Source: Crocinitomicaceae bacterium (GTDB taxonomy: Bacteria; Bacteroidota; Bacteroidia; Flavobacteriales_D; Crocinitomicaceae). Taken from it: a stretch of 64,000 nt of DNA. Shown here one piece after another: positions 27,471 to 61,323 of this stretch (positions within the stretch are counted from its first letter, which is position 1; every line of letters begins with the position of its first letter). The notes beneath the pieces were generated by a model that was not told the origin of the DNA, did not search any database, and worked only from the letters and a program-made list of their open reading frames with translations. The position numbers were made by a program, and so were the translations under genes. The stretch covers positions 186,001 to 250,000 of the forward strand of contig JAHEMR010000004.1 in assembly GCA_024643545.1 (NCBI GenBank), read 5' to 3'.

Positions 27471-27534
27471 TAATGTGCTAATGTGCGAATTAACTAATGT
27501 GCTAATGTGCGAATTAACTAGTGTGCGAATTCGC
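27471..27534 (+). repeat. 8-bp-phased array (TAATGTGC family), 8 units
   Basis: Direct reading: TAATGTGC TAATGTGC GAATTAAC TAATGTGC TAATGTGC GAATTAAC TAGTGTGC GAATTCGC. Confidence 0.95.
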
Positions 27535-27628
27535 TTCCACCTCGGCGGAGAATTAAAGTGCTTTAGATCATCGTTCTTGTTTTCTTTCGCCGGAACGGAA
27601 AATTATTCATAGGCTAAAACAATATCAT

Positions 27629-28127: not shown

Positions 28128-30323
28128 ATGAAATTTTACTTATTAATGATGATCCTTTTCGGGATTTCATCCATTTCAACAGCACAAATAAAGGGTGTTG
28201 TATTGCGGCAAGACTCTACAAAAAATACACCCATTGAAAATGCCAAAATTCGTCTTTCTCATTCGAATCAAGGGGTGTTTTCCAATAAGGAAGGTCAATT
28301 TGAAATCGTACTTCCTAAACAACTTCCAGATACGCTCATCATTAGTGCGATGGGCTACCTGTCGGACTCAATAATCGTGACAAAAAATGATCGCTTCATA
28401 GCCCTTACCATCTTATTGTTTCCTATTTCAACTAAAACAGAGATTGTATATCAAATGAGGAAAAATTCCCATCAAATATCCAAAATGAAAACACTCCACG
28501 TGGAAGAAATTGGTTCAGGTGAATTAAGGAAAGCTGCTTGTTGCAACTTATCAGAGTCTTTTGAAACGAATGCATCTGTAGATGTGAATATTACGGATGC
28601 CGTTTCTGGTGCGAAGAAAATACAAATGATGGGACTTGATGGTGTGTATACGCAAATCCAGATGGAAAATATTCCTTATTTGCGAGGACTCGAAAGCTCC
28701 TTTGGGCTTCAATCCATACCGGGAACGTGGATTGAATCCATTCAAATCACTAAAGGCACGGGAAACGTGGTGAATGGATACGAATCCATGGCAGGATTGG
28801 TGAATTTAGAAATAAAGAAACCGAATGAGATGGAGAAATTCTACTTCAATGCTTACCAAAATCGTTTTGGTCGATCTGAAATCAATGTCAATGGTGGTAG
28901 AAAAATCAATCAAAAATGGAGTACAGGAATTTTAGGACATGCTTCCTCTATGTTTGGAAACATCGATCACAATATGGATGGATTCCGTGATATTCCAATG
29001 GGAGATAATCTCGCTATCATGAATCGCTGGGCTTTTCAAGGAAAGAAAATGGAAGCACAATTTGGTGTGAATGCTTATCAAGACAGAAAATTAGGTGGGC
29101 AAAACACGTATTTCCGAGATAGTCCAGTTGGATATGGTGTGAGTATGAACGCGCGTCACGTAGACCTATACGCAAAAACAGGATTCTTCAGCAAAAAGCC
29201 ACTTAGGTCCTTCGGTGTTGTGTACAACCTAAAATTCCAAGAAATGAGCGGTATATTCGGAAATCGTGCATTCGAAGGAAAAGAAAAACGAGCCTATGTG
29301 AATGCGATTTACGATGACATTCTTGGAACAAGCGACCATAAGATCAAGTTGGGGGCAAGTTTTGTCGGATTGATGATTGAACAAAAAGCCGATCAACTAC
29401 AACAGGTTCGAACGGAAATAGTTCCTGGGATTTTTGGGGAATATAGTTACACGGGCTCTCGTTTAAGCGCAGTTTTGGGAGCGCGCTATGACCAACACCT
29501 CACTTATGGCGGGCAATTCTCGCCAAGGATTCATGCGAAATATGCACTTACACAACGAACTGATTTACGCGTAACAGCCGGAAAAGGATGGCGCGTTCCG
29601 AATTTCATGATCGATAATGTTTCCTTGTTAGCAAATTCGAAAACTTGGATGTCACCAACTGAAATCAAACCGGAAATTTCATGGAATGCAGGCGCATCCT
29701 TGGTGAAAGATTTTACACTTTTCGAAAAAACTGGAAACCTAAGCCTAGACTTCTATCATACTCTTTTCCAAAATCAATTGATTGTCGACCGAGATGCCGC
29801 ATTGGATGCAATTGTCTTTCAAAACCTAACAAACTCATCCTACTCTAATAGTTTTCAAGTGGAATGGTCTTATGCACCAATGAAGAATTTCGACCTTCGT
29901 TTAGCTTACAAACATTTAGATGTGAAGGCATTATATGATGGCGTGATGCGTCAACAAGTCATGATTCCAAAGAACAGAGGATTCATTAATGTAGCTTACC
30001 GAACGCGAAATAAACGCTGGGAATTTGATGCTACTTGTACGGTTTACGGATCATCGCGTCTACCTGTTATTCTTCAATCGTCGGGTATTGTACAGCATGA
30101 TGAGCAAAGTCCAATTTATCCGATGGTGAACGCACAAATCACACATGTTTACAAAAAATGGAATTTTTACGTTGGTGGTGAAAATTTAGCGAACTTTAAA
30201 CAAGCGAATCCGATTATTGATGCGCTGAATCCTTTTGGTTCTCAATTCGATGCAAACCGAGTTTGGGGTCCGATTATGGGATGGAATGTGTATGCGGGTG
30301 TTCGTTATGCGATTAAGGGGTAA
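28128..30323 (+). CDS. TonB-dependent receptor with carboxypeptidase-like regulatory domain
   Basis: IKGVVLRQDSTKNTPIENAKIRLSHSNQGVFSNKEGQFEI; plug KAACCNLSESFETNASVDVNITDAVSGAKKIQMMGLDGVYTQI; barrel. Confidence 0.93.
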   Translation: MKFYLLMMILFGISSISTAQIKGVVLRQDSTKNTPIENAKIRLSHSNQGVFSNKEGQFEIVLPKQLPDTLIISAMGYLSDSIIVTKNDRFIALTILLFPISTKTEIVYQMRKNSHQISKMKTLHVEEIGSGELRKAACCNLSESFETNASVDVNITDAVSGAKKIQMMGLDGVYTQIQMENIPYLRGLESSFGLQSIPGTWIESIQITKGTGNVVNGYESMAGLVNLEIKKPNEMEKFYFNAYQNRFGRSEINVNGGRKINQKWSTGILGHASSMFGNIDHNMDGFRDIPMGDNLAIMNRWAFQGKKMEAQFGVNAYQDRKLGGQNTYFRDSPVGYGVSMNARHVDLYAKTGFFSKKPLRSFGVVYNLKFQEMSGIFGNRAFEGKEKRAYVNAIYDDILGTSDHKIKLGASFVGLMIEQKADQLQQVRTEIVPGIFGEYSYTGSRLSAVLGARYDQHLTYGGQFSPRIHAKYALTQRTDLRVTAGKGWRVPNFMIDNVSLLANSKTWMSPTEIKPEISWNAGASLVKDFTLFEKTGNLSLDFYHTLFQNQLIVDRDAALDAIVFQNLTNSSYSNSFQVEWSYAPMKNFDLRLAYKHLDVKALYDGVMRQQVMIPKNRGFINVAYRTRNKRWEFDATCTVYGSSRLPVILQSSGIVQHDEQSPIYPMVNAQITHVYKKWNFYVGGENLANFKQANPIIDALNPFGSQFDANRVWGPIMGWNVYAGVRYAIKG

Positions 30324-30376
30324 TGTGCTAGTGTACTAGTTTGTTAATGGATCAATATGCAAATGTGCTAGTCTAA
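30321..30376 (+). repeat. 8-bp-phased array, degenerate, about 7 units
   Basis: TAATGTGC TAGTGTAC TAGTTTGT TAATGGAT CAATATGC AAATGTGC TAGTCTAA; first TAA is the stop codon of the TonB receptor. Confidence 0.85.
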
Positions 30377-30402
30377 ATGAATATTTTTTAAATTTATGTA
30401 TT

Positions 30403-30732
30403 ATGAAAACAATAACCTTAAGTCTATTTTTCGTGCTTATGAGCACCGTGAGTTTTGGACAAAAAACGATAACAAGTCAAATTCAAACAAGTGCACAATG
30501 TGGCGATTGTAAGGAGCGTATTGAAGGGAAGTTGAATTATACGAAAGGAATAAAATTCGCAGAACTCGATGACCAAACGAAAATTGTGAGCGTAAAATTT
30601 GACCCGAAAAAAATCGATCTATTTACAATTAAACAAACCATCGCGAAAATTGGGTATGATGCAGATGAAGTGAAAGCAGCGAAAGAAGACGTGGAGAAAT
30701 TACCGAAGTGTTGCCAGCCGAATGGACATTGA
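30403..30732 (+). CDS. Secreted heavy-metal-associated (HMA/MerP-like) domain protein
   Basis: Signal peptide; QTSAQCGDCKERIEGKLNYTKGI CxxC motif; C-terminal PKCCQPNGH. Confidence 0.88.
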   Translation: MKTITLSLFFVLMSTVSFGQKTITSQIQTSAQCGDCKERIEGKLNYTKGIKFAELDDQTKIVSVKFDPKKIDLFTIKQTIAKIGYDADEVKAAKEDVEKLPKCCQPNGH

Positions 30733-30764
30733 TAATGTGCTAATGATTTAGTAAACTAATTGTA
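30733..30764 (+). repeat. 8-bp-phased array, forward polarity, about 4 units
   Basis: TAATGTGC TAATGATT TAGTAAAC TAATTGTA directly after the TGA stop of the HMA gene. Confidence 0.8.
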
Positions 30765-30849
30765 CAACGTGTTCATGTTCATGTTCATGTTTTTTCAATA
30801 TTCCAATTTCTTTTCTCTATTGAAATCACTTTGACCTTAACGTGCACTA

Positions 30850-30905
30850 CAACATTGGCAAATTAGCACTTTAGGTGATTGGTACATGAGCACATTACTA
30901 CATTA
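30850..30905 (-). repeat. 8-bp-phased array, reverse polarity, 7 units, upstream of purF
   Basis: CAACATTG GCAAATTA GCACTTTA GGTGATTG GTACATGA GCACATTA CTACATTA. Confidence 0.85.
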
Positions 30906-30937
30906 TACCTATCTTTGTGGCAAATATCTAAAAGACC

Positions 30938-32839
30938 ATGAGTGATCCGATAAAACATGAGTGTGGAATAGCTCTTTTAAGGCTGAAAAAACCTTTGGAA
31001 TATTACCTAGAAAAGTACGGTACAGCACTGTATGGCATCAACAAGATGCACCTCCTCATGGAAAAACAACATAATCGTGGTCAAGATGGAGCTGGAATTG
31101 CGAACATTAAATTCGATATGGAACCAGGGAATCGTTATATATCGAGAACGCGTTCCATCAAAAAGAATCCAACCCAAGATATTTTTGATCAAATAAATGC
31201 GAAGTTTCAACAAATTCAACAAGAGAATCCTGCCAATTTAAAAGATGTAGATTACTTGAAGAAAAACGTTGGATTTACGGGTGAATTGTTCCTTGGTCAC
31301 TTGAGATATGGAACTTTCGGAAGAAATTCAATTGAAAGTTGTCATCCATTTTTGCGTCAAAATAACTGGATTACACGAAACCTCGTAGTCGCTGGAAACT
31401 TTAATTTGACCAACGTCGATGAGTTGTTTCAAACACTGATTAATCTTGGACAACATCCAAAAGAAAAAAGTGATACGGTAACAGTTCTAGAGAAAATTGG
31501 TCATTTCCTTGATGTAGAAAATGATGACTTATATGCTCATTATAAATCACTTGGCTATTCTAAAGATCAAATTTACGCGCGTATTGCCAAAGAGGTGAAT
31601 TTGGTTAAAATCTTAAAAAAAGCATCTGAAGTTTGGGATGGCGGATATGCTATGGCAGGCTTACTAGGACATGGTGATGCTTTTGTATTAAGAGATCCAA
31701 ACGGAATTCGTCCAGCATTTTGGTACGAGGATGATGAAATTTGTGTTGTTGCTTCGGAACGACCTGTAATTCAAACAGCCTTCAACTTAACCAGTGATCA
31801 AATTCATGAACTTCAACCCGGTCATGCACTGATTGTGCGTAAAAGCGGAGAAGTGAAAGAAGAGATGATTAATGCACCACGTGAAATTAAAAAATGCTCG
31901 TTTGAACGCATTTATTTCTCTCGCGGATCCGATACCGATATCTACAAAGAACGCAAGGCATTAGGACGATTAATCGTTGATCAAGTGCTAAAAACTGTCG
32001 ATTACGATTTTGATAATAGTGTGTTTTCTTTTATTCCTAATACCGCAGAAGTTTCCTTTTATGGATTGATCAAAGGATTGGAAGAAAATTTGAATCAACA
32101 AAAAATTCAGCAAATACAAGCGCTTGACTCTACAGCTGATTCTGAAAAAATAGAAGAGATTATCAATAGAAGAGCGCGTATTGAAAAAATCGCCATTAAA
32201 GATGCCAAGTTACGTACTTTCATCACTCAAGATGACTCACGAGACGATCTTGTTGCGCATGTATATGACATCACATACGGCAGTGTACGTCCAGGAACGG
32301 ATAACCTCATCGTAATTGACGATAGCATCGTACGTGGGACAACCTTAAAGCAAAGTATTTTACGCATTTTAGATCGTTTATCTCCGAAAAAAATCGTTGT
32401 TGTATCTTCTGCACCTCAAATCCGATACCCAGATTGTTATGGAATTGATATGGCGAAAATGGGCGATTTTATTGCGTTCGAAGCAGCCATTCAATTATTG
32501 CGTGACCGCAAAATGGACCGTGTGATCAAAGAAGTATACGAAAAATGCCTTGAGCAAGTAAACCTTCCGAAAGAACAAGTTCGAAATTTCGTAAAAGAAA
32601 TCTATGCACCTTTTAGCAACGAAGAGATTTCTGCAAAAATTGCTGAATTGTTGACACCTCCTACGATTCAGGCAAAAGTGGAAATCGTTTTTCAAACCGT
32701 AGAAAACCTTCACATTGCTTGTCCAGATCACCTTGGAGATTGGTACTTCACTGGAGATTATCCAACACCTGGCGGAAATAAAGTGGTAAACAAAGCTTTC
32801 ATCAATTGGATGGAAAAGAGGAATGAGCGAGCTTATTAG
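30938..32839 (+). CDS. purF: Amidophosphoribosyltransferase-like, class II glutamine amidotransferase (long Bacteroidota type)
   Basis: HECGIALLRLKKP, KQHNRGQDGAGIANI, LGHLRYGTFGRNSIESCHPFL, PRTase motif LIVIDDSIVRGTTLKQSI. Confidence 0.88.
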   Translation: MSDPIKHECGIALLRLKKPLEYYLEKYGTALYGINKMHLLMEKQHNRGQDGAGIANIKFDMEPGNRYISRTRSIKKNPTQDIFDQINAKFQQIQQENPANLKDVDYLKKNVGFTGELFLGHLRYGTFGRNSIESCHPFLRQNNWITRNLVVAGNFNLTNVDELFQTLINLGQHPKEKSDTVTVLEKIGHFLDVENDDLYAHYKSLGYSKDQIYARIAKEVNLVKILKKASEVWDGGYAMAGLLGHGDAFVLRDPNGIRPAFWYEDDEICVVASERPVIQTAFNLTSDQIHELQPGHALIVRKSGEVKEEMINAPREIKKCSFERIYFSRGSDTDIYKERKALGRLIVDQVLKTVDYDFDNSVFSFIPNTAEVSFYGLIKGLEENLNQQKIQQIQALDSTADSEKIEEIINRRARIEKIAIKDAKLRTFITQDDSRDDLVAHVYDITYGSVRPGTDNLIVIDDSIVRGTTLKQSILRILDRLSPKKIVVVSSAPQIRYPDCYGIDMAKMGDFIAFEAAIQLLRDRKMDRVIKEVYEKCLEQVNLPKEQVRNFVKEIYAPFSNEEISAKIAELLTPPTIQAKVEIVFQTVENLHIACPDHLGDWYFTGDYPTPGGNKVVNKAFINWMEKRNERAY

Positions 32840-33028
32840 TTTGCTAATGTGCTAGTTATCTATTGTGCTAATGTGCTAGTTATCTAATGTGCTAATGTGC
32901 TAGTTATCTAATGTGCTAGTTTGCTAATGTTCTAATGTGCTAGTGTGCTAGTTATCTAATCGGCTAGTTTGCTAGTTATCTAATGTGCTAGTTTGCTAAT
33001 GTGCTAATGTGCTAGTTTGCTAATGGTT
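32837..33028 (+). repeat. 8-bp-phased array, forward polarity, 24 consecutive units
   Basis: TAGTTTGC TAATGTGC TAGTTATC TATTGTGC TAATGTGC TAGTTATC TAATGTGC TAATGTGC TAGTTATC TAATGTGC TAGTTTGC TAATGTTC TAATGTGC TAGTGTGC TAGTTATC TAATCGGC TAGTTTGC TAGTTATC TAATGTGC TAGTTTGC TAATGTGC TAATGTGC TAGTTTGC TAATGGTT; first TAG is the purF stop codon. Confidence 0.97.
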
Positions 33029-33113
33029 CAATGATCTTTTGCGCCAAGGTGGGGATTTTAATGTTTCTTTGACGCGAGCAGAATAAATTTCAACTTCTTG
33101 CGTTCATTGTTTC

Positions 33114-33468
33114 ATGACTGATTCCAAGAACCCATTATTAAACAAATCATTTGACTTTGCGCTGTTAATTGTGTCGTTTTGTCAAGAGTTACAATCCCAA
33201 AGGAGTTTCAATTGCACATCAACTGTTAAAATCCGGAACGTCCGTTGGTGCAAATATTCGTGAAGCTCAGCACGCAGAATCTAGAGCGGATTTCATTCAT
33301 AAACTGAAAATTGCCTCCAAAGAATGCGAAGAAACGACCTATTGGCTTGAAATCTGTCAAGCAAGTTATTCCATGAATTGTGATGTACTCATTAACGAAT
33401 CGCAACAAATCGGCAAACTACTCAGTCGCATCATCTCAACAGCCAAACGGAATAAATCCCTAAACTAA
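33114..33468 (+). pseudogene. Frameshifted four-helix-bundle protein (S23/23S rRNA intervening-sequence-protein family)
   Basis: Frame from 33114 reads MTDSKNPLLNKSFDFALLIVSFCQELQSQ; another frame continues SIAHQLLKSGTSVGANIREAQHAESRADFIHKLKIASKECEETTYWLEIC. The family core is split across frames near 33198-33212. Confidence 0.85.
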
Positions 33469-33482
33469 CCAGACTCCAACTA

Positions 33483-33581
33483 GACCATTAGCAAATTAGC
33501 ACTCCGGCACGGCGGAAAGTCATTAGCACATTACACCATTAGCAAATTGGACGATTTGCACATTAGGTCATTAATACATTA
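33483..33581 (-). repeat. 8-bp-phased array, reverse polarity, two blocks, upstream of kdtA
   Basis: GACCATTA GCAAATTA GCAC then (phase break) AGTCATTA GCACATTA CACCATTA GCAAATTG GACGATTT GCACATTA GGTCATTA ATACATTA. Confidence 0.9.
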
Positions 33582-34815: not shown

Positions 34816-34863
34816 TAAAGTGCTAATGGACTAATGTGCTAATGTGCTCGTTTTCTCGTTTAC
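34816..34863 (+). repeat. 8-bp-phased array, forward polarity, about 6 units, after kdtA
   Basis: TAAAGTGC TAATGGAC TAATGTGC TAATGTGC TCGTTTTC TCGTTTAC. Confidence 0.85.
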
Positions 34864-34887: not shown

Positions 34888-34927
34888 GGTCAATAGCAAA
34901 CTTGCACATTGATTAATGAGCAAGTTA
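34888..34927 (-). repeat. 8-bp-phased array, minus-strand sense, about 5 units, starting at the stop codon of the minus-strand gene
   Basis: Reverse complement reads TAACTTGC TCATTAAT CAATGTGC AAGTTTGC TATTGACC; first TAA is the stop codon at 34927-34925. Confidence 0.7.
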
Positions 34928-35686
34928 ATTATAATAATAATCCTTCGGCTTCTTCGAGTAAAAAGGGATGTACCAACCAACGCGTATTCCTGTCTGAAGA
35001 TCGAGGCGCATGGCAGTGGACACGGGAATGTCCGGTTGGTCGTAGTTGATGGTTCGACGATTATACGTCAGACCTTGTTGGCAGTAAATTCCTGCATAAA
35101 AATTGAGCGGTCCACCATTATTAAGGAAAGAATAACCTATGAATTGGTGAAAATTAATGCCGGTAGTCATTCGGTCATAACCACGTTTATAGGTTAATTC
35201 GATTTGTGGAACCACTTGATCGTTGGTTTCAATGCGTAAATGATGCAACAAGTATCCTGCTCCTGCGTGAACAAGGATTCCTGAATTGGCATTTTTCTTA
35301 CCCGTTGGAAATAAACGTCCAATGCTGAAGTTTGCGTTGAAGCCACGTGGATAAACAAGAACTGTTGCCTTCGTGCCATTAACATCTGTAATATTTCCCT
35401 TGTCATCTAATAGGTGATCGAAGATTCCACTCATTTTCACTTGATTTCCAAAAATAAAATTGGCATCTACACCAAAATACCATTGGCTTTGTAATTTATA
35501 TCCGGCGGAAAATCCCAGGTTATTCAAGTATCCGTAGCGTGCCAATAAATCTCCTCCAGGTAGGTTTCCTCCCCAATGTATTCCAACTAAAGGAGTACTG
35601 ATGGATTCATTTTTTACTTCACCTTGCGCGTTTGCGAAAAAACGAAGCGAAAACATAAGCAAAAAAAGAAATGATCGAAGTTCCAT
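34925..35686 (-). CDS. Outer-membrane beta-barrel protein, hypothetical
   Basis: Signal peptide, barrel-like pattern, GIHWGGNLPGGDLLARYGYL. Confidence 0.65.
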   Translation of the reverse strand: MELRSFLFLLMFSLRFFANAQGEVKNESISTPLVGIHWGGNLPGGDLLARYGYLNNLGFSAGYKLQSQWYFGVDANFIFGNQVKMSGIFDHLLDDKGNITDVNGTKATVLVYPRGFNANFSIGRLFPTGKKNANSGILVHAGAGYLLHHLRIETNDQVVPQIELTYKRGYDRMTTGINFHQFIGYSFLNNGGPLNFYAGIYCQQGLTYNRRTINYDQPDIPVSTAMRLDLQTGIRVGWYIPFYSKKPKDYYYN

Positions 35687-35692
35687 GAGTGT

Positions 35693-38185
35693 TTATTTCT
35701 TTTTCAGAAAAATGCGCAAAAAGGGAAAATATCGCTCGATGCGATTTCTCCATTTACGCTTATTTTTAGATGGTTTATCAAAATACTCATTTCCGCTAGA
35801 TCCATAACCGTAGCCATAGCCATATCCGTAGCCGTAACCATATCCGTAGCCATAGCCAGCTCCATAACCATAGCCATAACCATAACCTTTCCCAGTAAGA
35901 TCTGTAGCGTTCACTAAAACGGCCATGTTAGGCATTTTCTTTTCGTGATAAAGACTTGCTGGTATACTTAACATTCTACGGTCTAAGTGTTCAGCTCTTG
36001 CAACATAAACGACAATATCTGAATATTTATGAACATGTAAAGAATCTGCAACCAAAGCTACCGGGGCAGTGTCTAGGATAACATAATCATACTGAGATTT
36101 TGCAATTTCAATTAACTCTGCCAAACGTGGTCTTAGTAATAATTCAGATGGATTCGGAGGGATATCACCGGAAATAATGTAATCTAAATTCTGATTTCCT
36201 TGATCATGAATGACGATATCATCAAACGTTAAATCTTCTTTTACGATATAATTTGTTACCCCGACAGTTTTAACAACATCCACATATCGCGCAATTTTCG
36301 GAGCACGCAAATCCAAGCCTATCACAACAACTTTCTTATCACTATGCGAAAGCGTATGCCCAATATTGATGGAAATAAATGTCTTACCCTCACCTGCAAT
36401 AGAAGAGGTTACCATAATAACTTTCGAGCCCTTTTTATCATTATCTAATAAAAAAGTTAAGTTTGTTCGAATCATTCGGAATGCTTCAGCAATATGTGTT
36501 CGCGCATTTTTTGTAGCCACAATCGTTCGTCCACTTTCATCCCCTTTAGGAACCTCTCCAATTGCTGGGATTTTAAATTTGATTAAATCGTGAAGGCCAT
36601 GAACTTTACTGTCCAATAAATATTTTAGGTAAATGATACCAAATGGCACTAAAAGTCCAATTACAACTGCAAAAATGTAGTATTTCTTACGGTTTGGCTC
36701 TGTAGGTAAACCATTGCTACTTGCCTCATAGATGATTTTTGTATTTCCAATAGAGGAAGCTGTCTTTATTTCATTTTCCTCACGTTTTTGCAACAAGAAA
36801 ATATACAATGTTTCTTTGATTTCTTGTTGTCGTTCTATATTCCTAAACTCACGTTCGTAACCAGGAACTGAAGCAATTTTATCTTTATAACGGTTATCGA
36901 CTACATTTAATGAATTCAAGGTAATTTTCAAACGAGATTTATTCGATTTCAACCCTTCATCAATGGAATGGCGTAAACCAATTAGTTGATCATCAATTTT
37001 TTGAACGGTTGGATTTTTAATACTAGAATTCTTCATTAAGCGTTGACGATCCAACAAGAGTTTATTGTACTGAGTAGTCATCGCCACGATAGAACCGTCT
37101 TCAAAGCCGAGATTCGATGGCAATAATTCCGTATAATCTTGGTGCTTCTGAAGGTATTCTTGCAGGTAATCATTCAAACTTAATTGTACAGAAGTCTGAA
37201 TAATACTCTCCTCTGTGGCACTTTGTTTGGCAACAAATTCCCCACCTTGAGTTGCTACATCAACAATATTGTGTTTTGTTTTAAATGCTTCTACGTCCTT
37301 TTCTACAGCTGATAATTCTTCAGTAATGTAGGCCATTCTGTCATTTATAAAAGCACTTGTATTTCGGGCGATTTCATTTTTATCATAAATGCTTTGAGCT
37401 TCATGCTCTGTAATGAGGGCAGAGATAATGTCATTATTTTTCTCAATTACCGGCCCGTCGTATGAAATAGAAATTAAATCTGAAAACTTATCAACGCGTT
37501 CTAAGATAATATCAGCACCCAATTTTGATGTGGCATCTTTGATTGGCTCTAGATAGACGATGTATTCATTTCCTATTGTTGATGCATTAAAATTGGTGTT
37601 TTTGACAAATGATATTAGTCCAATTTTAGTCGCTATCGGAGTGTTAAATGTATGTGAACCTAAATATGTGCTTTCATCAATGTGAAGTTCAAATCGCATT
37701 GACGAAATTACTTTTAATTGAAAACTAGCACTTTTGTCAAAAAGTAAGCTGTCATTTCTAACAGACTCTAATGTGAAAGGTGTGTTTTTGTATAACTCTG
37801 ATTTTTTAATGCCAGCATTTTGTCCAACCAATAAATACCTGCGATTTAAATTAAGTTTTCTAACAACACTATTCAGAATTGCCGGTGTTTTAAATAATGC
37901 GATTTCATTCTCTAATTTCGTGCTTTTTTCAGTTAATCCAAGGTCTTGAAATGCTGAAAGTCCTTTTAATACATCGTCTTCTTGATTCTGTATTAAAATG
38001 GTTGCTGTTGATTTATAAATTGGTGTAGAATACCTCAATAAAGTGTAGGCAACAAAAACAGAAATGAATACTCCCACAACGAACCACAACCAATAATGTA
38101 GGTAACGATCTATAAGTTCCCGTACATTTATCTTTGGCTCAGGAGCGTCTTGTTGATCCTGCTTTTGGTTATAATCCTCTTGCAT
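35693..38185 (-). CDS. wzc: Polysaccharide biosynthesis tyrosine autokinase (Wzc-like)
   Basis: Wzz domain plus BY-kinase motifs VIMVTSSIAGEGKTFISINIG, VVVIGLDLRAP, YDYVILDTAPV; Tyr-rich C-terminus. Confidence 0.93.
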   Translation of the reverse strand: MQEDYNQKQDQQDAPEPKINVRELIDRYLHYWLWFVVGVFISVFVAYTLLRYSTPIYKSTATILIQNQEDDVLKGLSAFQDLGLTEKSTKLENEIALFKTPAILNSVVRKLNLNRRYLLVGQNAGIKKSELYKNTPFTLESVRNDSLLFDKSASFQLKVISSMRFELHIDESTYLGSHTFNTPIATKIGLISFVKNTNFNASTIGNEYIVYLEPIKDATSKLGADIILERVDKFSDLISISYDGPVIEKNNDIISALITEHEAQSIYDKNEIARNTSAFINDRMAYITEELSAVEKDVEAFKTKHNIVDVATQGGEFVAKQSATEESIIQTSVQLSLNDYLQEYLQKHQDYTELLPSNLGFEDGSIVAMTTQYNKLLLDRQRLMKNSSIKNPTVQKIDDQLIGLRHSIDEGLKSNKSRLKITLNSLNVVDNRYKDKIASVPGYEREFRNIERQQEIKETLYIFLLQKREENEIKTASSIGNTKIIYEASSNGLPTEPNRKKYYIFAVVIGLLVPFGIIYLKYLLDSKVHGLHDLIKFKIPAIGEVPKGDESGRTIVATKNARTHIAEAFRMIRTNLTFLLDNDKKGSKVIMVTSSIAGEGKTFISINIGHTLSHSDKKVVVIGLDLRAPKIARYVDVVKTVGVTNYIVKEDLTFDDIVIHDQGNQNLDYIISGDIPPNPSELLLRPRLAELIEIAKSQYDYVILDTAPVALVADSLHVHKYSDIVVYVARAEHLDRRMLSIPASLYHEKKMPNMAVLVNATDLTGKGYGYGYGYGAGYGYGYGYGYGYGYGYGYGSSGNEYFDKPSKNKRKWRNRIERYFPFLRIFLKKK
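35801..35886 (-). repeat. In-frame Gly-Tyr-coding tandem repeat within wzc
   Basis: Encodes GYGYGYGYGAGYGYGYGYGYGYGYGYGYG; DNA is repeated GGNTAY hexamers with synonymous variation. Confidence 0.9.
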
Positions 38186-45984: not shown

Positions 45985-46064
45985 TAATGTGCTAATTATT
46001 CAATGTGCTAATTATTCAATGTGCTAATGTGCTAATGATTCAATGTGCTAATGTGCTAATGGTT
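45985..46064 (+). repeat. 8-bp-phased array, 10 units, 2 nt before carbamoyltransferase start codon
   Basis: TAATGTGC TAATTATT CAATGTGC TAATTATT CAATGTGC TAATGTGC TAATGATT CAATGTGC TAATGTGC TAATGGTT (plus strand; gene is on minus). Confidence 0.95.
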
Positions 46065-60002: not shown

Positions 60003-61283
60003 TTACTTCCATTTTACCTTATCGAAAATTAGGTGTCCGTTTGGACGATCATTCCAATTAGTACTAGTCACTATACTTGTAATTTCAAATAATGGGACAT
60101 CCATTAAAAAATCATATGATAAGGATACACTATCTTGGGTAATGGCAATTTGACCGAAATAATTTCCGGAACTCAAATTATTATTTTCAATTGTGAATTG
60201 AATGTTGTTATTGCCGGGAAAAATCGGCTTCTGGAAATTTTGATCATTACTATTTAAAGTAGAAATTATTTCACCGTTAGAATTAAAAATAATTATCAGA
60301 ACCTCAATACTTGATCTCGAAATTTTAGAAAATAGATCTAATCCAATAGTCACATCCTCACCACTTTTCAATTTAATAATATCAGAGGAATTTCCGTTTA
60401 TCGATAATTTTCTGATTTCAATATTAAAATCCACATTTTTTCTTCGATAATATTTTAATTCATCCCTTTTTCGATCGAGTCTAATTGCGTTTAATTGATA
60501 TTGTTTAACAGCATCAATCGTAGATATTAAATTTTGATGATTTCTTCCTGATTCTAGAATCAATGATTTATTCGTTAATTGAAGAATACTACCCATATTA
60601 TGACTCACAAACAACACAGTTCTTCCCTCACCTTTGCTAACCTCACCCATCTTGCCTAAACACTTCTTCTGAAATTCGGCGTCTCCAACAGCCAAGACTT
60701 CATCCACAATGAGTATTTCACTTTCCAGGTGAGCAGCTACTGCAAAAGCCAACCGCACATACATGCCTGATGAATAGCGCTTTACTGGCGTGTCAATGTA
60801 GCGTTCCACGCCAGAAAAGTCAATGATTTCATCTAGCTTGCGGTCAATTTCTCGTTTTCGCATGCCCAAAATGGCTCCATTTAAGTAGATGTTTTCACGG
60901 CCTGTAAGTTCAGGATGAAAACCAGTACCTACCTCTAATAAGCTGGCTACGCGACCTTTGATGTTTATTCTACCTGTTGTTGGCGTAGTAACTCTCGATA
61001 AAATTTTTAGTAAGGTACTTTTTCCTGCACCATTTCGTCCAATGATTCCAACGGCATCACCTTGATTTATTTCGAAGTTGATATCACGTAAACTATAGAC
61101 AATATCGCTTTCTCCACGGTTCGCACGATCATTCGTTTCACCAATTTTAAGGAATGGATCTTCTTGTTTTAATATCTTAGTCTTGAACCAACGTTCCATA
61201 TCACGGGACATAGTTCCTGTGCCAATCTCTCCGAGACGGTAGATTTTGGAGAGGTTTTCGACTTTGATGGCTGTGTTGCTCAT
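60003..61283 (-). CDS. wzt: Polysaccharide ABC transporter ATP-binding protein with C-terminal Wzt-like domain
   Basis: GIIGRNGAGKSTLLKILSRVTTPTTG; YSSGMYVRLAFAVAAHLESEILIVDEVLAVGD; extra ~170-aa beta-rich C-terminus. Confidence 0.92.
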   Translation of the reverse strand: MSNTAIKVENLSKIYRLGEIGTGTMSRDMERWFKTKILKQEDPFLKIGETNDRANRGESDIVYSLRDINFEINQGDAVGIIGRNGAGKSTLLKILSRVTTPTTGRINIKGRVASLLEVGTGFHPELTGRENIYLNGAILGMRKREIDRKLDEIIDFSGVERYIDTPVKRYSSGMYVRLAFAVAAHLESEILIVDEVLAVGDAEFQKKCLGKMGEVSKGEGRTVLFVSHNMGSILQLTNKSLILESGRNHQNLISTIDAVKQYQLNAIRLDRKRDELKYYRRKNVDFNIEIRKLSINGNSSDIIKLKSGEDVTIGLDLFSKISRSSIEVLIIIFNSNGEIISTLNSNDQNFQKPIFPGNNNIQFTIENNNLSSGNYFGQIAITQDSVSLSYDFLMDVPLFEITSIVTSTNWNDRPNGHLIFDKVKWK

Positions 61284-61323
61284 TTGTTTGTTTGCTAATG
61301 ACCCAATTTGCTAATTGGGGCAA
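61284..61323 (+). repeat. Short 8-bp-phased array directly before wzt start codon
   Basis: Plus strand TTGTTTGT TTGCTAAT GACCCAAT TTGCTAAT TGGGGCAA; sense (minus) ATTAGCAA ATTGGGTC ATTAGCAA ACAAACAA-ATG. Confidence 0.6.

Follow-up and report, generated by a model that had tools for sequence, protein, structure and literature searches.

Repetitive extragenic palindromes (REP) and bacterial interspersed mosaic elements (BIME) are intergenic, are often located at the 3'-ends of genes and occur as inverted pairs. The same three features characterize the repeat arrays described here, which we found in a 64,000 nucleotide stretch of DNA from a Crocinitomicaceae bacterium (assembly GCA_024643545.1, contig JAHEMR010000004.1, positions 186,001 to 250,000 of the forward strand). 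This whole stretch is called the window and all positions are counted from its first letter. REPs are single palindromes with a GTAG-type unit, which are mobilized by REP-associated tyrosine transposases (RAYT). In contrast, inspection of the window indicated a non-palindromic octamer (TAATGTGC) as tandemly repeated unit. An earlier note on this DNA had pointed out that several octamer arrays begin on the stop codon of the upstream gene. Beyond this, we found that the arrays are oriented, usually convergent and part of a wider pattern around genes encoding the 23S rRNA intervening-sequence protein (IVP, PF05635).

Intervening sequences (IVS) carrying an S23p/IVP reading frame have been described in the 23S rRNA genes of Coxiella, Leptospira and other bacteria. 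They were called selfish or possibly mobile and their origin is still considered unclear (PMC4990558). The cassettes described below resemble these elements in the PF05635 protein, in the sense orientation of its gene inside a transcribed host region and in terminal inverted repeats able to pair. They differ in their host sites, which are junctions of protein-coding genes (purF-waaA, metH and the other flanks examined) and not 23S rRNA, and in their inverted repeats, which are tandem arrays of 7-8-nt units, with many copies carrying no reading frame. Direct repeats of the heptamer TAACTGA were reported for Beggiatoaceae, Cyanobacteria and some Bacteroidetes and they are also short and intergenic, provide a stop in every frame and overlap in some cases with upstream stop codons (PMC4679880). 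However, the heptamer is fixed, is mostly located just before start codons and is inverted in a single case; the passages considered do not mention a link to IVP (PMC4679880). In Porphyromonas gingivalis a miniature inverted-repeat transposable element (MITE) with an internal minisatellite likewise joins inverted and tandem repeats in a member of the Bacteroidota. According to the abstract, the minisatellite is located inside the MITE, whereas here the tandem arrays themselves form the inverted repeats (PMC4596501). Searches of the open-licence literature did not turn up any account of IVP genes with inverted short-unit arrays on their flanks.

Array boundaries and orientation

The TonB receptor gene (28128-30323) ends with TAA at 30321-30323 and this triplet opens the first octamer (TAATGTGC) of the plus-strand array 30321-30368. 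Similarly, the TAG of purF (30938-32839, plus strand; stop codon 32837-32839) opens TAGTTTGC, the first of about 25 units forming a long plus-strand array (32837-33036), and the stop codon of a minus-strand barrel gene (34925-35686; stop codon 34927-34925) opens TAACTTGC, the first unit of an inverted array on the minus strand (34888-34927). The HMA gene (30403-30732) ends with TGA and a TAATGTGC array on the plus strand (30733-30780) starts with the very next base. All four boundaries were reproduced as the earlier note had given them. In the home genome (G000; 2.75 Mb, 38 contigs), which carries about 25 octamer arrays, four additional exact starts on stop codons were detected outside the window (L031 13454; L033 6403, minus strand; L034 8452, minus strand; L036 6444). 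Other arrays do not coincide with a stop codon. The plus-strand arrays 27471-27534 and 34816-34863 start 18 nt past a PIG-L family gene and 8 nt beyond the waaA stop codon (TGA), respectively, and some arrays abut start codons. Thus, exact coincidence is frequent but it does not follow a fixed rule.

To compare these boundaries with chance, we retrieved 119 contig loci by an exact search for three consecutive copies of TAATGTGC. The loci listed all belong to Bacteroidota (many orders) or to the related Ignavibacteria/Kapabacteria. Their genes were predicted using a codon model and their arrays were detected with a weight matrix. For 80 of the loci, 151 arrays were called in the real sequence and a single one in the reversed-sequence control. 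For 76 arrays the upstream gene was co-directional and the gap was defined, and 21 of these arrays started exactly on the upstream stop codon. When arrays were placed randomly between this stop codon and the next gene, 0.72 such starts were expected and the maximum obtained in 20,000 simulations was 6. These data exclude chance placement as cause of the stop-codon boundaries. The stop was supplied by the first, second and third unit in a ratio of 21:4:3, and each of the offsets just past the stop codon was several-fold rarer than offset 0.

The two ends of an array are not equivalent. The outer TAA end hugs gene stops and gene starts alike and the inner GC end is located far off. Among neighboring arrays not more than 1.5 kb apart, 46 pairs were convergent (+-) and 12 were divergent (-+); the inverted pairs mostly measure about 50-700 bp. 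Therefore, the arrays have an orientation, and many gene junctions are spanned by two arrays in inverted arrangement. In the window, the array behind the HMA gene is the left arm of such a convergent pair and the right arm is an inverted array upstream of purF (30842-30905, minus strand), which directs its outer TAA end towards the purF start.

A sequence resembling TAATGATTTGTTCGCTCCGC recurs just inside octamer arrays of two congeners, G002 and G032 (L077, L078, L190, L192), as if these were a family of short elements with a common interior.

Orthologous junctions with and without arrays

Among the 37 genomes of the genus, abundant octamer arrays are confined to G000, G002, G015 and G032, and these four are also closest to each other as judged by PurF identity to the query. 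Most other relatives in the genus did not contain any octamer-array match, even when one mismatch was allowed. Orthologous junctions were compared, and three origins suggested by the earlier note (trimming of gene ends by arrays that supply stops, expansion of units out of terminal TAA/TAG codons, insertion at the stop) fared differently.

Trimming proved mostly wrong. PurF ends with NERAY or NVRAY (N[EV]RAY and stop) in all 26 congeners including the home genome, whether an array is present or absent, and trimming is ruled out for this gene because its orthologs share the terminal residue although the sequences that follow are unrelated. The HMA and barrel proteins have also retained their native ends (the HMA protein carries one extra residue in G015), and the protein at site 75454 has kept its native length. 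The stop triplet itself varies. In purF of the four array-rich genomes the first triplet of the array is the stop codon (TAG in two, TAA in two), and array-free relatives use TAA nearly always. The barrel gene ends with TGA in the array-free genomes G005 and G008 and with TAA or TAG where an array adjoins. Since the triplet varies with the array while the protein remains unchanged, it appears that the array has contributed the stop codon. The earlier note would have given up its idea if orthologs shared the end residue ahead of unrelated sequence and TAA/TAG composition alone explained the match; the former is what we observed, but composition fails as explanation. Array-supplied stops that alter the protein were found at two other junctions, where the array also encodes the last codons. 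At C14:258990 (L031 10990-11053) translation of octamer units gives the gene product a C-terminal tail, which reads NGLMC here and NVLVC or NVLIG in congeners. The array-coded tail of the G015 WaaA protein is NVLVT.

Expansion from terminal codons is not supported by the data. An identical octamer is present at unrelated genes in many orders, and a slippage origin was rejected because one stop codon cannot yield convergent inverted pairs by slippage. Insertion at the stop fits best with the exact-offset statistic and with the empty sites: operon junctions that measure 0-4 nt in array-free relatives (G005/G008) are occupied in this clade by arrays, the length of which ranges from tens of bp to about 150 bp. 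The number of octamer units varies between orthologous sites.

IVP genes between convergent arrays

Between purF and waaA convergent octamer arrays enclose a PF05635 gene. The left arm is the long array starting on the purF stop codon and the right arm consists of inverted arrays upstream of waaA (33475-33581, minus strand). The enclosed plus-strand frame (33169-33468) matched PF05635 with an E-value of 1e-17 but is truncated at its 5'-end; the gene is decayed in G000, where the homologous ATG (near 33114) does not share the reading frame. At the same position G015 carries an intact frame of 125 amino acids. For the RNA of the purF-waaA cassette, folding predicted a structure with paired arms (z = -3.4).

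We detected IVP genes in 122 of 149 sampled Bacteroidia genomes. Seven of the 119 octamer-array loci contained an IVP gene, and about one was expected according to a rough estimate from the average IVP density. Four of these seven genes are located exactly between convergent arrays, to which the IVP gene at the purF-waaA locus of G000 and G015 has to be added. A general link between IVP and TAATGTGC was rejected, since octamer arrays were present at three of 30 IVP loci of the genus and at none of 30 in the class sample. Instead, the general association is with 7-8-nt arrays of any sequence. Inspecting 120 Bacteroidia IVP loci, which are partly non-independent as some genomes and some orthologous junctions are represented repeatedly, we found that about half were flanked by 7- or 8-nt arrays with units that are unlike between genomes. 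Arrays of period 7 were detected at 49 flanks on the upstream side and at 45 on the downstream side, and those of period 8 at 18 and 13, respectively. Periods of 5, 6, 9, 10 and 11 were observed not more than four times each. Of the 37 pairs in which the two flanks agreed in period, 31 were inverted.

Despite their unrelated units, the upstream arrays of these loci mostly start -5 to +7 nt from the stop codon of the preceding co-directional gene, and the TAG or TAA of the unit may be the host stop (TAGCTTA, TAGATTT, TAAAAAGT and TTAGTTA are examples). The stop triplet was in phase with the units at 19 of 44 loci (6.1 expected). Where the array as detected excludes the stop codon, only 7 in-phase stops were counted (3.4 expected). 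TAG served as upstream stop codon at 24 of the 44 loci compared with 18 of 103 control genes. The upstream gene was co-directional with the IVP gene in 109 of 117 cases (baseline for adjacent pairs 0.73) and both neighbors were co-directional in 94 of 113. Upstream arrays contained 308 stops on the sense strand and 186 on the antisense strand, and permuted units gave 256 (SD 18). One IVP protein showed a weak match below the cut-off (E-value 9e-9) to bAvd, a name that refers to the Avd-type proteins of diversity-generating retroelements.

At the junction of two metH genes an IVP cassette of 497 and 591 nt is present in G005 and G014, respectively, and the corresponding junction does not exceed about 26 nt in some 25 congeners. 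Judged from this sequence comparison, the metH junction shows insertion into a clean empty site or, less likely, repeated precise loss.

Additional arrays and repeats were found in other parts of the window. One plus-strand array (45985-46064) is separated by 2 nt from the start codon of a minus-strand carbamoyltransferase gene, upstream of which it is located, and its position is the same in G002. A degenerate plus-strand array (61280-61319) is located upstream of the minus-strand gene 60003-61283 and is well preserved at this junction in G002. Within or beside arrays we noticed a GC-rich palindrome resembling TCCGCCGCGGCGGA (27534-27555 and 33500-33520 of the window; L235 1850-1865 and 1908-1925), which G015 has preserved well and which is decayed in the window; in G003 a similar palindrome occurs in arrays built from a different type of unit (L237). 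An imperfect period-6/18 repeat (CCATAG) was seen at 35802-35884 inside the minus-strand reading frame 35693-38185.

A probable insertion cassette and competing explanations

These arrays are probably the terminal arms of an insertion cassette in gene junctions, the first unit of which takes over the upstream stop codon. Such a cassette would settle mostly in the interior of transcription units or at their ends and, in its complete form, would carry a PF05635 four-helix-bundle gene, sense to the host transcript, between two convergent arrays with units of 7 or 8 nt. As neither period is divisible by three, one unit stop recurs in all frames and, with stops in several frames, a cassette inserted at a stop codon or immediately ahead of it would leave the host protein nearly unchanged. 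In vivo the inverted arms could pair in the RNA around the IVP frame, similar to the 23S rRNA IVS elements. The forms lacking IVP, among them most TAATGTGC arrays, may descend from such cassettes as remnants or non-autonomous derivatives, and the cassette itself may be mobile with a target preference for stop codons. A more far-reaching version, which we put forward as a tentative and rather unlikely proposal, holds that phylum-wide IVP cassettes enter protein operons of Bacteroidota in sense orientation, choose stop codons, replace them with the stop of the first unit and have their unit renewed in each lineage, perhaps via an RNA or translation-linked step.

Several observations weigh against the cassette explanation. 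Most TAATGTGC arrays lack an IVP gene, a single orthologous locus within the genus joins octamer arrays to IVP, and the link between solo arrays and IVP cassettes rests on about six loci and the shared anatomy. Furthermore, the TAATGTGC unit is constant over many taxa, whereas the IVP-flanking units change by genome, and about half of the IVP flanks did not carry an array by the criterion used. The fold of the IVP-free array pair (30730-30937) was not unusually stable (z = -1.2), a result for which we also dropped the idea of a terminator. A transposase, a target-site duplication and recent dispersed copies were not demonstrated.

Part of the pattern would also arise if insertion was random and only junction insertions survived, with hits in the last codons being tolerated via stops in every frame, so that the array often contains the stop. 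Selection by itself accounts for the intergenic location of the arrays, and the sense-strand stop enrichment as well as the two junctions with genuine array-coded C-terminal tails are in line with this scheme. However, units one, two and three should then supply the stop about equally often, which does not match the 21:4:3 ratio. Native length is kept by PurF, by the HMA and barrel proteins and by the protein at site 75454, and the sharp drop in frequency from offset 0 to each offset just past the stop also argues against this scheme. We consider untargeted insertion unlikely, but it should be kept in mind.

An alternative scenario is that the arrays are functional 3'-end elements under selection (terminators, mRNA stabilizers, protein-binding sites or REP-like elements). 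This idea draws on the marked 3'-end position and orientation, on the inverted pairs and on the retention of arrays at the same junctions in congeners. On the other hand, arrays are also located directly before start codons and within short operon junctions, most relatives in the genus lack even a one-mismatch match, the units are degenerate with a fast turnover and no unusually stable hairpin was predicted for the IVP-free pair tested. Thus, a role as 3'-end element appears improbable. Even less probable, to a degree that we hardly consider it, is growth of octamers by local slippage from TAATG or TAA stop-start sequences gene by gene. The units do open with TAATG, which is a stop-start overlap (for instance in metH of G031), and unit counts differ at orthologous sites. 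However, one octamer is found at unrelated genes throughout the phylum, unrelated units show the same stop behavior, and inverted arms and an enclosed IVP gene contradict this origin.

Coming back to the insertion cassette, its closest relatives in behavior may be the IVS elements. The frame 33169-33468 encodes IVP/S23p (PF05635), which is absent from most octamer arrays, and terminal inverted repeats surround the frame (the arms at 33 kb with their predicted pairing at z = -3.4; 31 of 37 same-period pairs elsewhere). The cassettes are, however, not located inside a 23S rRNA gene and for this reason we would say by analogy that the arrays and IVP cassettes work like IVS and not that they are IVS.

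To our knowledge, no function has been established for the IVP/four-helix-bundle genes. Taken together, the data look as if a little-studied insertion element was placed just behind genes without breaking them. With an anatomy that recurs (inverted arrays of 7-8-nt units, an orientation in sense, a first unit on the stop codon and empty sites that are clean), the notion of a selfish or mobile element can be tested directly in those Bacteroidota that are culturable. If true, this notion would account for a class of mysterious intergenic repeats.

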